Shown in pieces: positions 42,073 through 50,811 of a DNA stretch of 64,000 nucleotides. The stretch is from Calditrichia bacterium (GTDB taxonomy: Bacteria; Calditrichota; Calditrichia; RBG-13-44-9; J075), in the NCBI GenBank assembly GCA_028284905.1, contig JANQQU010000073.1:62001-126000 (forward strand), in the 5' to 3' direction. A program made the translations under genes and the position numbers. Each line of letters begins with the position of its first letter. Position 1 is the stretch's first letter. Below the pieces are notes generated by a model that saw nothing but the letters and a program-made list of their open reading frames with translations, ran no database searches and was not told the DNA's origin.

Positions 42073-42087
42073 TTTTCTCGACATTTT

Positions 42088-42123
42088 TAACAAGGTTAAC
42101 ACTTTAAACTGTTAACCTTGTTA
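42088..42123 (+). terminator. Hairpin after moxR
   Basis: A perfect 14-base stem, TAACAAGGTTAACA (42088-42101) with TGTTAACCTTGTTA (42110-42123), with an 8-base loop. The following sequence GCATTATTTTC is only moderately T-rich. Confidence 0.65.
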
Positions 42124-42292
42124 GCATTATTTTCTTTCCCTGAAAAACTCCCCACTCATTTTTTTCGCCATAAACCATTTAACAACAAAGACTTAAAACC
42201 TAATCTTCTATTTTCTTTCCCTAAATTCAAATTTTCGGTATCGAATTTGAAGCAGATTAAAGTGGTACTTTTAAACAAGGGAAGGATACATC

Positions 42293-43744
42293 ATGAAACA
42301 TTATCTATCCACATTGATCTTCGCCGGTCTTGCCCTACTGCTTTTACAGGGTAGTGCAACTGCCCAGCTGATCCTGACGGATGCGGATTTTGACCGGGAC
42401 CGTGATGATGATGACTGGGAATATTATGACCGTGATTACAACGGTGATGATGGCTACGATGATTATGGTGATGACGACGATTATTATGATTATGACGATT
42501 ATGATGATGACTATTATTATGACGACTATGATTATGATGACGACGGCAATATCATCATCGTCAAGAAGTATTATCCAAGCTATTACCCCCGGCGTTATTT
42601 CCGGATCGGCGCAATATTATCGAGTTATCCATTTATCTCCTTTAGTTTCGGGTTCGATGATCCGTTCTATTGCTCAACCTCGTATTACGATCCGTACTAT
42701 GATCCGTATTACTATCCGGTGACTTACTATCGGCCGATAACTTATTATCCCCGATACTACCATCGTGCGCGCTATAGTTATTACAAACCGCGCTATTGGT
42801 ATCCCCGTTACCGGGCAAAATACCGGCATTATTACAGTCCGTATCGCTACCGGAACTATCACTATAAATCCCGGCATTACAGCAAACCGAAGCATAAATA
42901 TCGCAAGCGTGGCTGGGATCGTTATAAAAAACGGCAGCGAAATGATCAACGCAGGCGCAATTATGGCGTAAATGAGCGGGAACGCGGACGCAGGAATGCG
43001 GTTGTTAACCGACCACGCAATAAGGACCGGAAACGCTACGATCAGAAGCGGGAACGCGGACGTCAGGTAGAAAGGCCACTCAGCCAGGATACCCGGCGGG
43101 AAGATCGCCAACGCCGTAAAGATGCAGTTCGCCAACGGGAAGTCCGTAAGGATAACCGCCGGGTGACTGACAATCGCCAACGCCGTAAAGATGCAGTGCG
43201 TCAACGGGAAGCCCGCAAGGATAACCGCCGGGTTACCGACAATCGCCAACGACGGCGTGTTGATTCTGACCAACGGAGAGATACCCGAAAACGGCTCGAA
43301 AGCCAAAATAAAGGCAGACAGTTGGAAAAGCGGGTCTCCCGGGAAGAGAAACGGCGGAGAAGCCAAAACGACATTCGGAAGATCAATCAGCGCAAGCAGA
43401 ATGATTACCGGCAGAAGCAGCGGCAAGAAGACCGGCAACGGCAAAAAGTAGCTAAAGCCCGGACAGAGCGGAAAAGCAACACTTATCGAAAGTCTAAAAG
43501 GAATGATAGTCGTAAGCAGCAGGTCGCCAAGGTTCGTAAGGACAGGCGGCAGGAGCAGCGAAAATCTTCCCGCCAGAAAGTACGGCAGGATGATCGCAAG
43601 CGGACAAAATCGGTAAGTAGCAAGCGCCAGAGCAGTCGCCGTTCTTCCGGCAAATCGATTCAGAAGTCACGACAAAAATCGGAGAGAAGCAGCAAGCAAT
43701 CCCGGAGGCAGTCTTCCCGGGAAACCAAGCGGCGCTCCCGATAA
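42293..43744 (+). CDS. Secreted charge-segregated diblock protein (Asp/Tyr then Arg/Lys)
   Basis: A 483-residue exported protein with no known family. The signal peptide ends at Ala24. Residues 29-85 are an Asp/Tyr block with about 30 Asp and 14 Tyr. Residues 86-200 are Tyr/Arg-rich with a short hydrophobic patch (IGAILSSYPFISFSFGF) and YYDPYYDPYYYP. Residues 201-483 are disordered and extremely basic, with two exact-length 23-residue repeats at 272-294 and 295-317. There is one Cys (127). AAGGATACATC gives a sound ribosome site and a UUCG terminator follows. It could bind polyanions (LPS, extracellular DNA, teichoic-like polymers) or metals, or form coacervates; all inference. Confidence 0.85.
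   Translation: MKHYLSTLIFAGLALLLLQGSATAQLILTDADFDRDRDDDDWEYYDRDYNGDDGYDDYGDDDDYYDYDDYDDDYYYDDYDYDDDGNIIIVKKYYPSYYPRRYFRIGAILSSYPFISFSFGFDDPFYCSTSYYDPYYDPYYYPVTYYRPITYYPRYYHRARYSYYKPRYWYPRYRAKYRHYYSPYRYRNYHYKSRHYSKPKHKYRKRGWDRYKKRQRNDQRRRNYGVNERERGRRNAVVNRPRNKDRKRYDQKRERGRQVERPLSQDTRREDRQRRKDAVRQREVRKDNRRVTDNRQRRKDAVRQREARKDNRRVTDNRQRRRVDSDQRRDTRKRLESQNKGRQLEKRVSREEKRRRSQNDIRKINQRKQNDYRQKQRQEDRQRQKVAKARTERKSNTYRKSKRNDSRKQQVAKVRKDRRQEQRKSSRQKVRQDDRKRTKSVSSKRQSSRRSSGKSIQKSRQKSERSSKQSRRQSSRETKRRSR
43106..43255 (+). repeat. 69-bp tandem repeat inside the diblock gene
   Basis: The unit at 43106-43174 is repeated at 43175-43243 with few changes, and a third partial copy runs to about 43255. Being 69 bases it keeps frame and encodes the 23-residue basic repeat starting RQRRKDAVRQRE. 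Confidence 0.85.
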
Positions 43745-43800: not shown

Positions 43801-43831
43801 CGTCATCCTGCTTCGGCAGGATGACGTTTTT
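43801..43831 (+). terminator. UUCG-loop terminator of the diblock gene
   Basis: CGTCATCCTGC (43801-43811) pairs perfectly with GCAGGATGACG (43816-43826) across the very stable TTCG loop, and a T run ends at 43831. The T run overlaps the stop codon of the convergent TIR-WD40 gene. Confidence 0.92.
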
Positions 43832-46109
43832 ATTTATTCGGCGGAAAGAAACGCAGCCATAAATTTCCTTCCGGATAATCGCATTTCCGGGCATGCTTCC
43901 GGGCCAGCTCGCCAAAGGTAGCAGACAAACTGTCCCATTCACTGACGCTCAGACATTCGATTTGCCGGGAGGCAGAGTCCATCCGCGTACCGGTCAACGC
44001 CATCATTTGCATTTTGTAAGCATCCTGCGGGAAATCCAGGTCCAACACAGCCTCATTGCGATAATCATCTGATATCTGTTTAAGAGATTCCCAGTAACGG
44101 GCAGTGCTATCGCTGCTCCAGGTAATTACCCGGGTAAAATCCGCGTTAAAGACACAGCCGCGAACTTCATGATTTTGCCGTCCCTTATTGTCGTGATGTA
44201 AAGATGCCCCCAGTTGCCGGCCGGTGCGAATGCTCCAAAGACGGGTGGTGTTATCATCACCCCAGGTAAGGATATAATCCCCGGCACTATTGAATGCAGC
44301 ACCGAAGATACCGGCATCGTTCCCTAACGGCCCTGAACTGTGTAAAAAAGCATTGCCGACTTGCTTACCGGTATTGGTATCCCAGATGCGGACGGAATTA
44401 TCATAGCTCCAGGTGAGCACACGAGTTTCGCTGTTATTAAATGCGGCACCAAAAACCCAACCATCGTGATAAAGCGGATCACCAATCTGCAGCCGATCTT
44501 CAACTTGCCATAGCCGGGCAGTATTATCCCGCCCCCAGGAGAGCATCCGGGTTTCATTTTGATTTAAGCAAACCCCACTGACTGCACCATCATGTTTCAG
44601 CGTTTTTCCCACTGGTTGCCCGTTTCTTGCATACCAGAAACGGACCTCACCATCCGTCGCCCAGGAAATAATTTGCGATTCATTTTTATACCAGATCGCT
44701 CCCTGCACTGCCCCTTTGTGCCGCAAAGGCTGCATTAACAAACGGCCATTTGCAACGTTCCAGCATTTCAGCGTGCTGTCATCGCTCCAGGTAAGCAGGA
44801 TGGATTCATCGGCATTCATTAGTGCACCGTTAATCCAACCATCATGTTCCAGCGGGGGACCTTGCGGCTTTCCATCGGATAATTGAAAAATCCTGGCGGA
44901 AAAGTTTTTGCCAATGCTGATCACCCGGGTTTCCTTCTGATCGAATTGTGCATCGACGACGCCATCACCATGATTCATAGATATCTTCGAGCGGGAAACG
45001 CCATCAATCGACCATAGTTTCAGATATCCATCCTCGCCCCAGGAGAGCACTTTCTGCCCATTTTCAGTAAACCGGATACCGTTTACAGCGCCCTGATGCG
45101 TTTCTCCACCGTCAATCGCTGCACCGCTTTTTGCATGCCAGCGTTTAATCTTTCCCTGGTCTCCCCAGGTAAAGATTTCTGTATAATCCGGATTAAAAAT
45201 CGCGCCGTTAATTTCTCCCTGATGACGGAAAATTTGCCCCAGCCGAAGCACCGGCTCATACTTTCTACTTTCTGCCAGGAGCTCGGTTCGAAGCTCAGGA
45301 TCCGGCGCAGCATCTAATGCCTCTGAAGCGTAAAAAAGTGCCTGCATAATGCGGTTTTCCGAAAACATTTGCTGACTATTTTGCCGGCTTTCATCGACCA
45401 ATGCCAGGCTGAGCGCGCGTTCCCGGGCAGCAATTTCCCCATAATATTTTTGCAGATAAAGTCCGCCGACTGTCAGTAACAGGCCCAGTAATGCCGAGAT
45501 TGCCAGAAGACGATGACGACGGCGACGAAAGCCCCGATTCCGTTCGCGTTGTGCCAGGTCCAGCCGTTTCTGGCCGCTTAATTCTGCCAGAAGGGTATAC
45601 CATTCACTTTCAAACCCTTCCTTGTGCAGCTTATCTTTTTGAAGATTGAATCCGCTAAAATTCACCCATTGCGGATTAGGCAGCAACTCATACAGCACTT
45701 CCGGCAAAGCACCAAACTCTTTTTTGTCATCCTCAGTAAGATGGTTTGGCAGTCCTTCAAAAATAACCGGGGTGATATTTCGGGCACCATTCTGCACAGC
45801 GAATTTTCTGATTTTTTCATCGAGGTCATTGTTCTGCCGCGCGCGGGGGGTACAAACTACAATCAGCTTTTGACACTGTTCAAAGCGTTGGCGTATTGGG
45901 GTGTAATAGATATCATCCGGTAAATCATGCGCATCTTTGAAAATCTTCAGGGGCGTACCTGAGCCTCCCAGTTCATCGGGGGGACGATAATTTTTTAAAA
46001 CTTTTTCCAGGTGAGCGGCAAAATCAATATCTTCCGGATGGTATATGATAAAGACATTTTCTATCTGCTCGGTTTGCTCAATACTCTTTAGACGTTCAAT
46101 ATAATCCAT
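43830..46109 (-). CDS. Membrane-tethered TIR-WD40 protein
   Basis: A 759-residue protein. TIR domain at about 15-150: NVFIIYHPEDIDFAAHLEKVL (strand A/box 1), LKIFKDAHDLPDD (BB loop) and QKLIVVCTPRARQNNDLDEKIRKF. A basic RRRRHR stretch precedes one membrane helix near 225. The rest is a WD40-like propeller of about ten repeats (ILTWSDDSTLKCWNVANGR, MLSWGRDNTARLWQ and similar), predicted periplasmic. The usual W/S-x-W-V-N-E-E catalytic segment of NAD-cleaving TIRs is altered here. The GTG at 46121 is rejected since GGAGG lies five bases before the ATG at 46109. It stands alone; role in signalling or defence is unknown. Confidence 0.88.
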   Translation of the reverse strand: MDYIERLKSIEQTEQIENVFIIYHPEDIDFAAHLEKVLKNYRPPDELGGSGTPLKIFKDAHDLPDDIYYTPIRQRFEQCQKLIVVCTPRARQNNDLDEKIRKFAVQNGARNITPVIFEGLPNHLTEDDKKEFGALPEVLYELLPNPQWVNFSGFNLQKDKLHKEGFESEWYTLLAELSGQKRLDLAQRERNRGFRRRRHRLLAISALLGLLLTVGGLYLQKYYGEIAARERALSLALVDESRQNSQQMFSENRIMQALFYASEALDAAPDPELRTELLAESRKYEPVLRLGQIFRHQGEINGAIFNPDYTEIFTWGDQGKIKRWHAKSGAAIDGGETHQGAVNGIRFTENGQKVLSWGEDGYLKLWSIDGVSRSKISMNHGDGVVDAQFDQKETRVISIGKNFSARIFQLSDGKPQGPPLEHDGWINGALMNADESILLTWSDDSTLKCWNVANGRLLMQPLRHKGAVQGAIWYKNESQIISWATDGEVRFWYARNGQPVGKTLKHDGAVSGVCLNQNETRMLSWGRDNTARLWQVEDRLQIGDPLYHDGWVFGAAFNNSETRVLTWSYDNSVRIWDTNTGKQVGNAFLHSSGPLGNDAGIFGAAFNSAGDYILTWGDDNTTRLWSIRTGRQLGASLHHDNKGRQNHEVRGCVFNADFTRVITWSSDSTARYWESLKQISDDYRNEAVLDLDFPQDAYKMQMMALTGTRMDSASRQIECLSVSEWDSLSATFGELARKHARKCDYPEGNLWLRFFPPNK

Positions 46110-46365
46110 ATTAGCCTCCACTCGCTTCGACGATCCTACGCGGTGAACGGGTTTCAGTCAGACATTTTGAGAACCGCTGTATACTAACGGTCTTTCACAG
46201 GATTCCCTCCCTTATGTCCTAATAACAAAAAACGCGAATCCGCCCGGGCGATGGTGATGTAGCAGACAAAATCTCAATCCGGGTTCGTAGGCAATTTGCG
46301 TCCATTCCCAGGGGGGCGCGTCCACAAGAGCGAAAGTTGAAAACAAATTACAGAAAGGACCTATC

Positions 46366-47163
46366 ATGGCAACATTAACGAAAGAAGAAATTCGGGAAGC
46401 AGTACGGGAAAATTATGGCAACATCGCTCAAACAGAAACCACTGGCTGTTGCGACCCAGGTTGTTGCAGCACGGAAACCACGGAGAAAGACCCGGCGAAG
46501 ACAGCTCGGGCGTTAGGCTATTCTGATTCGGAAATCAATACTGTGCCGGCAGGTGCAAACATGGGATTAGGCTGTGGCAACCCTGGCGCAATTGCTGCCC
46601 TGCAGCCGGGTGAACGAGTGTTAGACCTCGGTAGCGGCGGTGGATTTGATTGTTTTCTCGCTGCCAGGGAAGTTGGCGACAGCGGCAAGGTTATTGGTGT
46701 TGATATGACCGCTGAAATGGTCACAAAAGCCCGGGGCAATGCCGAGAAGGGTGGTTATGGGAATGTGGAATTCCGCCTTGGAGAAATAGAACATCTCCCC
46801 ATCGCTGACAATAGCGTCGATGTGATTATCTCGAATTGCGTCATCAATCTCTCCCCGGATAAGGGACAGGTATTCAAAGAGGCTTTCCGGGTATTGGACA
46901 AGGGCGGCAGACTGGCGATCTCTGATGTCGTCGCATCCACGGAATTACCGGAGCATATTCGTAAAGATCTGGCGCTATATACCGGTTGTGTCGCTGGTGC
47001 ATCGCAAATAACAGACATTGAGCAGATGCTGCAGGAAGCCGGTTTTTCCGATATTCAGATCGCTCCGAAAGATGAAAGTCGGTCTTTCATCAAGGAGTGG
47101 GTGCCGAATGGGAATGTCGAAGATTACATCGTTTCCGCAACTATCGAAGCGGTAAAAAAATAA
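46366..47163 (+). CDS. arsM: Arsenite S-adenosylmethionine methyltransferase
   Basis: A 265-residue ArsM that methylates As(III) to volatile or less toxic organic forms. The N-terminal Cys cluster TGCCDPGCC, the SAM motif VLDLGSGGGFDCFLAAR, and the As(III)-binding cysteines in SNCVINLSPDK and LYTGCVAGA are all present. AAAGGACCTATC precedes ATG. No arsR, arsC or efflux gene is nearby and I see no ArsR-type operator, so it stands alone as in many FCB genomes. Confidence 0.95.
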   Translation: MATLTKEEIREAVRENYGNIAQTETTGCCDPGCCSTETTEKDPAKTARALGYSDSEINTVPAGANMGLGCGNPGAIAALQPGERVLDLGSGGGFDCFLAAREVGDSGKVIGVDMTAEMVTKARGNAEKGGYGNVEFRLGEIEHLPIADNSVDVIISNCVINLSPDKGQVFKEAFRVLDKGGRLAISDVVASTELPEHIRKDLALYTGCVAGASQITDIEQMLQEAGFSDIQIAPKDESRSFIKEWVPNGNVEDYIVSATIEAVKK

Positions 47164-48111: not shown

Positions 48112-50811
48112 CTATCTTTTTGCGAGCAGTTTTTCCATGATGGCGTTATGCACTTTCGGGCGAACGGTTTTAATGCCGGTTCTTTCCGGATCGGGATGTA
48201 CCCGGTTGCTAAGCAGAACGATGATTATTTCCCGGGCAAGGTCGATCCACAGCGAAGTGCCGGTAAATCCCAGATGACCGATGGACTCCTTCGAGAAATG
48301 ATTGCCACTGCTACTATTTTCCGTGGGTGTGTCCCAGCCAAGCGTTCGGGCGGAAATATCCGGATTAAAACGTTGGGAGAATTGCCGAATCGTTTTTCCG
48401 GAAAAAATTCGCTGTCCATTATAGATACCTTGTTGCAGAAATAACTGCCCAATTGCAGCAACATCTTTGGCGTTTCCAAAGAGTCCCGCATGCCCGGCGA
48501 TGCCACCGAGTGCAAAACAATTGGCATCATTGACTGCTCCCTGAATGATGTTCTCCCGATATCCGTCCTTTCCGGTTGGCGGAAATTGCGCTCGTTTTTT
48601 CTGCACCGGCGTAAAGCTGAAAGATGTTATCCCCATCGGTTGAAAGATATGATTCCGGCAGAACGTTGCCAGGTCCCGCCCGCTAACACGTTCTACAATT
48701 TCTCCCAAAAGGATAAACCCCAGATCGCTGTAGATGCTTTTCTCCCCGATTGGATAGCTCAGTGGCGTCTGAAGAATTTCCCGGACAATTGCTTGCTGGC
48801 CTTCCAGTTTTTCATAAAAAGGAATCCAGGCGGGAAAACCTCCCTGATGGCTCAGCAAATCCGCGACGGTTATTTGCTTTTTATCCGGATCCGTCAATTC
48901 CGGAAAGAAATCGCTGATCGGTTGTTCAATTGCAAGCATTTCCCTGTCCAGCAACTTCATGATGGCGGTCGTCGCTGCAGCGACTTTTGTGACTGAAGCC
49001 AGATCGTATTCCGTTTCCCTTGTTACCGCTGCTGCGTCAAATTCGTATGCATATTTACCGTAACCTTTCCAATAACGAATCTCCCCTTCTTTGGCTGCCA
49101 ACAGCACACATCCCGGAAAGATTTCATCCTGAATCGCTTCAGCGATGACCTGATCCACGCCGGGCCAATCATCAGGCTCATCCACCTGTTTCAGAGAATA
49201 ATCCTGACGGGGCAAATGAACTGCTTTACTAAAATTCTGAAGTGTGATCGGTAGTTTTCCATCAATTTCAATAAAGCTGCACAGCGCTTTAAAAGCTGCT
49301 TGCTGAGACGCCTGCACATAGGAATAGGTCAGAAACAGCGCATCCGCGCCATGGTCCGCCGGCAATACATCGATATGGAAAGGATTCCCGAATAGAAAGA
49401 TTACCAGCGGCTGCCCGGCTTGCCGGCAATGATGGAGGCATGCGTTAATCGCCTGCCAGTCCAACGTTTGCACATGGCCGCCAAATGTTCGCAGATATAT
49501 CGATACCACCGCGATGGCATTTCCCTCAGCCTTCTTTTTCGGCAAAGATGTTTTCGAAGGATTATTATAAATTGCAACGTCGTCGAAAAAGCCACGCATC
49601 TCCCGGCAAAAATCCGTTAGGGGCTGGTCTTTAAACTCGCTATCGGTAAAAATAAAATGGTCGACCCGACTAACTTTATTCAGTTTCAGGGGAAAACGAT
49701 CGCTTTGATGCAGCAAGGTAATCGCAGATTCTGCCGCGCCGGCAGCGATCCCTTTATGATTGGGATGAGCAATCCACTTATTGACGCGCAAGGGATGATT
49801 TTGTGCGGGCATCTTTTTATGCAGCCACTTTTTCAGGCGAAAAATTCGCTCCACTGCGGCTTCTGCCTGCTGGCGAAAATGATTGTCTGTTTCAATGCGC
49901 CGGGTAAGAATTTGATGAATAAGTGGCACCTGCCGGGGCATTAAAAGCACATCCGCCCCTGCTAGTATCGGTTCGCAAGCCAATTGAACGGGGGAATAAT
50001 GATCCGCTACCGCTCCCATATCCATTGCATCAGTAAAAACAACACCATCGTAGCGCCAGTCATCGCGGATAATCGCACGGTTCACTTCCGGAGAAAGTGT
50101 TGCCGGCAACTTCATTTTCGGCAGGGTTAGATGACTAACCATCAAGCCTTTTACATCGGCATCGATCGCATTTCGATAAGGCTGAAACTCGGATTTTTTC
50201 AGTTCTGCAAGTGATTTGCTTAGCGCCGTTAAATCGGTATGGGAATCACGATCCGTTGCGCCATGTCCAGGGAAATGTTTTCCGACGCAGGCGATCCCGT
50301 ATTTTTGAACAGTCTTGATAATCCGCTCTGCGATCTGTCCTACTTTCTCAGGAGATTGATGATAGGCCCGAATATTAATAATCGGATTCGCCGGGTCATT
50401 GGCAAGGTCCAACGACGGGCCGAAGAAGATATTGATACCGGTACTACGGGCTTCCCGGGCGAGCACATCACCAAAATCCTCGGCAATTTGCAGATTATCT
50501 GCTGCGCCAAGCGCCATCGCATGGGGAAACATGGTGCCTTCCGCAAAAACGCTGCGAAATCCACGTTCCAAATCAGCACCGAACATCAATGGAAATTGAC
50601 TGGCCTTATTTAGCTCGGAGGTCCATTGCCGCAGGTCAGCCGGATGCCCATAAAAGAAAATGAAACCACCAACATGATGTTGCTTTACCATGCGAACAAT
50701 TCGCCGAAATTCCGGCGCTTCACGATTCTGATAGCCAACATAAAGCACCGGCATAATTAATTGCCCGGCAAGCACTTCTGCAGGGAGATGATGGGCACGG
50801 GGCAGTTTCAT
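48112..50811 (-). CDS. Fusion of GH3 beta-N-acetylhexosaminidase and beta-lactamase-like serine hydrolase
   Basis: An 899-residue two-enzyme protein. Residues 1-340 are a NagZ-like GH3 domain with KHFPGHGATDRDSHTD (178-193, His183 region as acid/base) and nucleophile Asp261 in FTDAMDMGAV. A linker GH3 C-terminal-like domain (about 350-540) follows. Residues 550-899 are a class C beta-lactamase-like domain: SVTK nucleophile (Ser606, Lys609), YSDLG (the YxN-type Tyr) and HLGFTG (the KTG counterpart). Bacteroidetes have the same fusion with a signal peptide; here the N-terminus is not a signal peptide, so the protein seems cytosolic and would act in cell-wall recycling. Confidence 0.92.
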   Translation of the reverse strand: MKLPRAHHLPAEVLAGQLIMPVLYVGYQNREAPEFRRIVRMVKQHHVGGFIFFYGHPADLRQWTSELNKASQFPLMFGADLERGFRSVFAEGTMFPHAMALGAADNLQIAEDFGDVLAREARSTGINIFFGPSLDLANDPANPIINIRAYHQSPEKVGQIAERIIKTVQKYGIACVGKHFPGHGATDRDSHTDLTALSKSLAELKKSEFQPYRNAIDADVKGLMVSHLTLPKMKLPATLSPEVNRAIIRDDWRYDGVVFTDAMDMGAVADHYSPVQLACEPILAGADVLLMPRQVPLIHQILTRRIETDNHFRQQAEAAVERIFRLKKWLHKKMPAQNHPLRVNKWIAHPNHKGIAAGAAESAITLLHQSDRFPLKLNKVSRVDHFIFTDSEFKDQPLTDFCREMRGFFDDVAIYNNPSKTSLPKKKAEGNAIAVVSIYLRTFGGHVQTLDWQAINACLHHCRQAGQPLVIFLFGNPFHIDVLPADHGADALFLTYSYVQASQQAAFKALCSFIEIDGKLPITLQNFSKAVHLPRQDYSLKQVDEPDDWPGVDQVIAEAIQDEIFPGCVLLAAKEGEIRYWKGYGKYAYEFDAAAVTRETEYDLASVTKVAAATTAIMKLLDREMLAIEQPISDFFPELTDPDKKQITVADLLSHQGGFPAWIPFYEKLEGQQAIVREILQTPLSYPIGEKSIYSDLGFILLGEIVERVSGRDLATFCRNHIFQPMGITSFSFTPVQKKRAQFPPTGKDGYRENIIQGAVNDANCFALGGIAGHAGLFGNAKDVAAIGQLFLQQGIYNGQRIFSGKTIRQFSQRFNPDISARTLGWDTPTENSSSGNHFSKESIGHLGFTGTSLWIDLAREIIIVLLSNRVHPDPERTGIKTVRPKVHNAIMEKLLAKR

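Follow-up and report, generated by a model that had tools for sequence, protein, structure and literature searches.

An exported, charge-blocked protein of a Calditrichia bacterium: probable distant relative of the CYT lipoproteins under putative sigma-54-type control

Is a gene of extreme composition, located between moxR and a TIR/WD40 gene in a Calditrichia genome, an isolated oddity or part of a larger system? Within the window, i.e., the whole stretch of 64,000 nucleotides that was analysed, the gene at 42293..43744 (+) is an ORF of 483 aa that encodes an exported protein composed of an acidic/Tyr, a Tyr and an Arg/Lys part. It is preceded by the Shine-Dalgarno sequence AAGGGAAGG (42277..42285, +) and followed by an intrinsic terminator with a UUCG loop (43801..43826, +), such that both signals named in a first-pass annotation are present. 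The signal peptide (residues 1-24; 42293..42364, +) reads MKHYLSTLIFAGLALLLLQGSATA with predicted cleavage between SATA and Q, is modelled by AlphaFold as a helix of residues 2-24 and has no lipobox Cys; the sole Cys of the protein is residue 127. It is followed by the acidic/Tyr head (residues 25-85; 42365..42547, +), for which a composition count gives a net charge of -28 and for which the annotated 30 Asp and 14 Tyr within residues 29-85 are exact. The Tyr-rich middle (residues 86-205; 42548..42907, +) holds 35 Tyr and includes a short strand-like stretch YPFISFSFGFDDPFY. At its end lies the junction motif region KYRKRGWDRYKK (residues 201-212; 42893..42928, +), the counterpart of a [K/R]RxWDRR motif in the lipoproteins described below. 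The remaining residues 206-483 (42908..43741, +) form the basic tail with a net charge of +77. Its 278 aa comprise 81 Arg and 34 Lys (115 R/K) beside 22 Asp and 16 Glu (38 D/E), i.e., the tail itself is of mixed charge and not purely basic. An in-frame tandem repeat of 69 bp in 2.1 copies (43104..43251, +) within the tail is a sign of growth via repeat expansion.

The sequence charge decoration of the protein is 15.5 compared to 56.8 +/- 2.8 in shuffles. That is, the opposite charges are indeed segregated along the chain into blocks beyond what shuffled sequences show. The gene's codon usage score (0.073) lies among those of the neighbouring genes (0.050-0.122), while the antisense ORF reaches only -0.026, and the Asp/Tyr, Tyr and Arg/Lys blocks are each in line with the neighbours. 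The gene is thus not low-complexity noise, in agreement with the first-pass annotation. The proposed disordered Arg/Lys-rich tail of about 280 residues is right in length and composition but not uniformly disordered, since the AlphaFold model predicts two fairly confident helices (residues 265-312 and 325-393) with a block pLDDT of up to 94. Outside of these helices the confidence is low (mean pLDDT 51). An association with moxR, also suggested at first, is not conserved: moxR orthologues in relatives adjoin other genes.

Comparing the protein with Pfam and NCBIfam yielded zero matches, and a scan of genome contigs with its N-terminal half found no relative. One PDB sequence-search match (UBF1, E 0.07) is at chance level and was dismissed. 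With the whole protein as query, three further genomes of its order gave weak matches; the loci found there, like additional ones, each encode a lipoprotein that repeats the block order. Hence, the claim that the protein falls into no described family stands for Pfam and NCBIfam, while its view as an isolated oddity has to be given up, since there are lipoproteins with the same block order.

These relatives start with a lipobox [G/S]CYT(Q), which is followed by an acidic/Tyr head, a Tyr-rich middle and a basic tail. We collected 42 family rows, in which some species are present twice, and required for the selection only a Cys followed by an aromatic residue, i.e., CYT itself was not demanded. 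Still, 41/42 rows read CYT, and the remaining one (L085) was merely parsed wrongly, as its sequence contains AGCYTQL. The head is net acidic in 38/42 and the tail net basic in all 42 rows. Examples are found at L032:3888-5231 and L053-L089, where an Arg/Ser-rich tail comes after the acidic/Tyr and Tyr-rich parts. CYT lipoproteins occur across Calditrichota and at least seven other phyla. When using the alignment of an adjoining FadL-like barrel as query, loci with a barrel relative were located in records of Calditrichota, Marinimicrobia, KSB1, Poribacteria, Latescibacterota, Ignavibacteria, Bacteroidota and Gemmatimonadota, and a Tyr-rich lipoprotein adjoins the barrel in at least 33 of the 37 loci whose barrel relative is of the FadL-like kind. 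In the Calditrichota loci, the lipoprotein gene is placed between an NtrC-type response regulator (upstream) and the barrel. The host genome also encodes a CYT lipoprotein, on contig C9 (the L032 example above), where sensor kinase, regulator (L032:2210-3685), lipoprotein and barrel stand in a row and the lipoprotein gene is preceded by the same Shine-Dalgarno sequence as the window gene. Those CYT lipoproteins that were scanned against Pfam and NCBIfam gave no meaningful match, a literature search on Tyr-rich lipoproteins, on FadL in connection with sigma-54 and on secreted polyampholytes brought up nothing relevant, and none of these sources provided a name for the C9-type lipoprotein. CYT lipoproteins that adjoin a barrel of the FadL/PorV/BamG superfamily thus apparently represent an undescribed, multi-phylum family. 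A gene for a small outer-membrane barrel with a weak YjbH match recurs in 15 lipoprotein-barrel loci (L061, L063, L070, L071, L075, L076, L078-L080, L082, L083 and L086-L089), which suggests a three-gene envelope module of lipoprotein, FadL-like barrel and small barrel.

Does the window protein belong to this family? Beside the block order, it shares with the lipoproteins a DGxxII-x-YY stretch and, with RKRGWDR at residues 204-210, the [K/R]xWDR junction motif of Calditrichaceae and relatives. A core profile built from nine lipoproteins scores the window core with 102.9 bits. Shuffles that keep the composition within 20-residue blocks score 72 on average (sd 6.3) and reach the true score in 1/2000 cases. 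We also scanned 40 Calditrichota genomes with a core profile that included the window sequence and obtained 29 matches in 23 genomes. An automated scan found the CYT lipobox in 26 of these 29 matches and left it undecided in two (L153, L154), of which L153 is the same gene as L194 and reads SGCYTTF there. Only for the window gene is the absence of lipidation clear. Its protein lacks the lipobox [L/F]x[G/S]CYT and has no Cys ahead of residue 127. Its start LLLLQGSATAQL resembles LLFLQGCYTQL without Cys and Tyr, which suggests that lipidation was lost. Given these observations, the window protein is very probably a diverged, non-lipidated and distant member of the CYT lipoprotein family, as far as can be judged from sequence.

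Against this membership counts that the similarity consists of low-complexity sequence plus short motifs, that shuffles overlap with the true score at about 1 in 2000 and that identity to the lipoproteins is only 18-28%, and the lack of a FadL-like gene next to the window gene also sets it apart. Low identity and composition-driven sequence would equally fit an independent secreted low-complexity protein of convergent composition, which was put under the same regulator and has an envelope role without being a family member. Searching this genome with the G001 lipoprotein misses the window protein even at E <= 1, a result that had no control and is uninformative by itself, and the promoter regions of both genes are dissimilar outside the regulatory sites, which fits such convergence as well. 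It does not account for the common block order, the KRxWDR motif, the DGxxII-x-YY stretch and a profile score above that of composition-matched shuffles, such that we consider convergence unlikely.

The direct comparison with the C9 lipoprotein shows where both proteins agree and differ. Common to both are the acidic/Tyr head, the Tyr-rich middle, [K/R]RxWDR, the basic tail, paired palindromes and a -24/-12 promoter. Only the C9 lipoprotein carries the CYT lipobox, and only its gene is flanked by a response regulator (upstream) and a FadL-like gene (downstream). The tails differ, too: the one of the window protein is a mixed-charge Arg/Lys/Gln/Asp sequence while the CYT lipoprotein's is of Arg/Ser type.

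The regulatory sites provide a second line of evidence. Upstream of the window gene there are two putative response-regulator (enhancer) sites, TTTTAACAAGGTTAACA (42085..42101) and TGTTAACCTTGTTAGCA (42110..42126), that are 25 bp apart, to which no strand is assigned and which each agree in 13/14 positions with TGTWAACnnnGTTWACA. They are the only 17-bp palindromes with at least 12/14 agreement within the window and are found about 165-215 nt before the gene. Paired palindromes spaced by 22-25 bp are also present in the lipoprotein loci of Calditrichaceae and f2, and such pairs stand upstream of most CYT lipoprotein genes examined, further out than the promoter element. The latter, [T/C]GG[T/C][A/G][T/C]-N5-TTG, precedes 16 Calditrichota lipoprotein genes by 46-58 nt (74 in C9) and has the spacing of sigma-54 promoters. 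For the window gene, the sigma-54-type -24/-12 element TTTCGGTATCGAATTTGAAG (42233..42252, +) is located 57 nt before the ATG and ranks third among about 128,000 window positions when scored with a matrix from the elements of 15 relatives. In its -12 half it reads TTTGA, which several relatives share, in place of the consensus TTGC. An inverted repeat at 42087-42124 could be taken for a terminator of moxR, but its stem is not directly followed by a U-run and its position is that of the two palindromes; we thus read it as the enhancer sites. A double role as enhancer sites and terminator is possible. A recent duplication of the whole promoter finds no support, since the promoter regions of window gene and C9 lipoprotein are unlike beyond the sites.

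In the 8.55-Mb genome, five palindromic sites have 0-1 mismatch, namely one at the C9 lipoprotein operon, two at the window gene, one at a gene on contig C37 and one on C12 that falls inside a gene. The combined pattern of palindrome and promoter has 6 matches, among them the C9 operon, the window gene and the C37 gene, compared to 1 and 1 (each strand) for the reversed control. Further candidates on C36 and C54 show one weak site or lie inside a gene and were treated as chance. A similar pattern applied to 16 genomes recovers the lipoprotein locus in most of them, with several times more matches than its reversed control. Among all controls, we give most weight to the block shuffles, the genome-wide palindrome rank and these reversed-pattern counts. 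The product of the C37 gene (L176:1714-2832) has a signal peptide, an acidic/Tyr stretch and a match to pAdhesive_15 (Putative Ice-binding-like adhesive domain, E 1e-8). The gene has a consensus-like TGGCA-N6-TTGC promoter 54 nt before its start; that only one palindrome is good and the second weak counts against shared control of this gene. For the window gene itself, the site and promoter patterns make it highly likely that it is under the same NtrC-type regulator and sigma-54-type control as the CYT lipoprotein genes. From position and conservation, we infer that the regulator beside the C9 lipoprotein would be the one that binds the palindromes.

To which known systems does the lipoprotein-barrel pair compare? 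In the Bacteroidota BAM complex, BamH is the lipoprotein partner of the FadL-like BamG, into which its lipidated N-terminus docks (PMC12611786, PMC12578637). Both pairs combine a lipoprotein that has a conserved lipidated N-terminus with a barrel of the FadL superfamily, whereas BamH is folded and the CYT lipoproteins are of low complexity. By analogy, CYT, which is invariant, may serve to dock the lipoprotein onto the FadL-like barrel. The window protein has neither a lipobox nor an NCBIfam match, and its model is mostly of low confidence, which sets it apart from BamH. Likewise, the barrel partner of the CYT lipoproteins is not BamG: it scores 68 bits against a cut-off of 250, and a better BamG match exists on contig C47. 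With E 8e-45, this gene (L133:82-2610) matches BamG better than any other of the genome and has a lipoprotein gene directly upstream, such that the C47 locus is likely a BamG-BamH pair in Calditrichota. With regard to PorV/PorQ barrels, the CYT partner barrel matches PorV_fam weakly (51 bits, below the cut-off of 90), and any role in type IX secretion would be putative.

This comparison also bears on the question where the window protein acts. The protein has a signal peptide only, with no T9SS-like C-terminal domain discernible by eye, its lipoprotein relatives adjoin outer-membrane barrels, and a flexible Tyr-rich loop is known in Bacteroidota BamA (PMC12578637). All this would suit a periplasmic spacer or chaperone instead of an outer coat, with the Arg tail and the Tyr-rich middle binding peptidoglycan, inner-leaflet LPS or unfolded outer-membrane proteins. 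Since the ligand in the periplasm is putative and the regulatory sites are shared with a secreted ice-binding-like adhesin, we regard a periplasmic role as rather doubtful.

Our overall explanation, which joins control and coat and in which we place moderate confidence, is that the window protein is a soluble, exported and regulated partner of the anchored lipoprotein. The absence of a close sibling of the window gene in the six other genomes of its family counts against it. In this model, firing of the two-component system would let the C9 regulator bind the palindromes and activate sigma-54 transcription of the C9 lipoprotein, window and C37 genes, such that the anchored lipoprotein with its FadL-like barrel, the soluble window protein and the C37 adhesin would be made together. 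Signal peptidase I would cleave the exported window protein and release the soluble form, which the loss of the CYT docking signal would leave free. Its acidic/Tyr head and basic tail could then bind each other as well as complementary blocks of the anchored lipoprotein via charge and Tyr-Arg contacts, and this association would result in a hydrated coat or adhesive layer at the outer membrane.

A matrix or adhesion role had already been put forward in the first-pass annotation. It gains indirect support because the lipoprotein operon and the gene of a secreted ice-binding-like adhesin have regulatory sites in common with the window gene, and we suggest a coat or adhesion function tentatively, as a possibility below even chance. 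Tyr-rich adhesive proteins and phase-separating Tyr/Arg sticker proteins combine Tyr-rich and Arg-rich blocks in one chain as the window protein does, which is a likeness of composition only. The head invites another reading, i.e., a secreted protein that binds minerals or metals and uses its Asp/Tyr block to nucleate Ca or Fe minerals, given that a stretch with 30 Asp in 57 residues would, on general chemical grounds, bind cations. On the other hand, the acidic head is far less regular in the relatives that share this architecture, mostly with 7-24 D/E per 60 residues, and regulation is in common with envelope proteins and not with metal genes; a mineral function is therefore very improbable.

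Through the analysis, an oddity of composition becomes a system open to testing: a widespread and apparently undescribed lipoprotein-barrel pair whose CYT anchor is invariant and whose order of charges is conserved, and for which a defined regulatory switch predicts genes that act together. A much wider picture, which we consider speculative and unlikely to hold in full, is that in several FCB-related phyla a charge-patterned coat of Tyr/Arg type is made from an outer-membrane-anchored polyampholyte lipoprotein whose CYT start is docked on the FadL-like barrel. In this species, a single two-component/sigma-54 switch would bring in a soluble polyampholyte and an adhesin as well and so give a regulated extracellular condensate. 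If the coat model is true, bacteria would offer an example of charge-blocked Tyr/Arg polymers that are tethered to a membrane and used outside the cell.

Beside the gene under study, some of its surroundings in the window are worth recording. The TIR/WD40 gene (43830-46121, -) is convergent with it. Its product may serve in signalling or defence: the N-terminus looks TIR-like by eye, a single transmembrane stretch is present and Pfam finds WD40 repeats. Also in the window is a methyltransferase gene (46366-47163, +) whose product has a Cys-rich N-terminus and appears arsenite methyltransferase-like by eye, and further on (48112-50811, -) a beta-lactamase/serine hydrolase domain is fused to a GH3 N-terminal domain.
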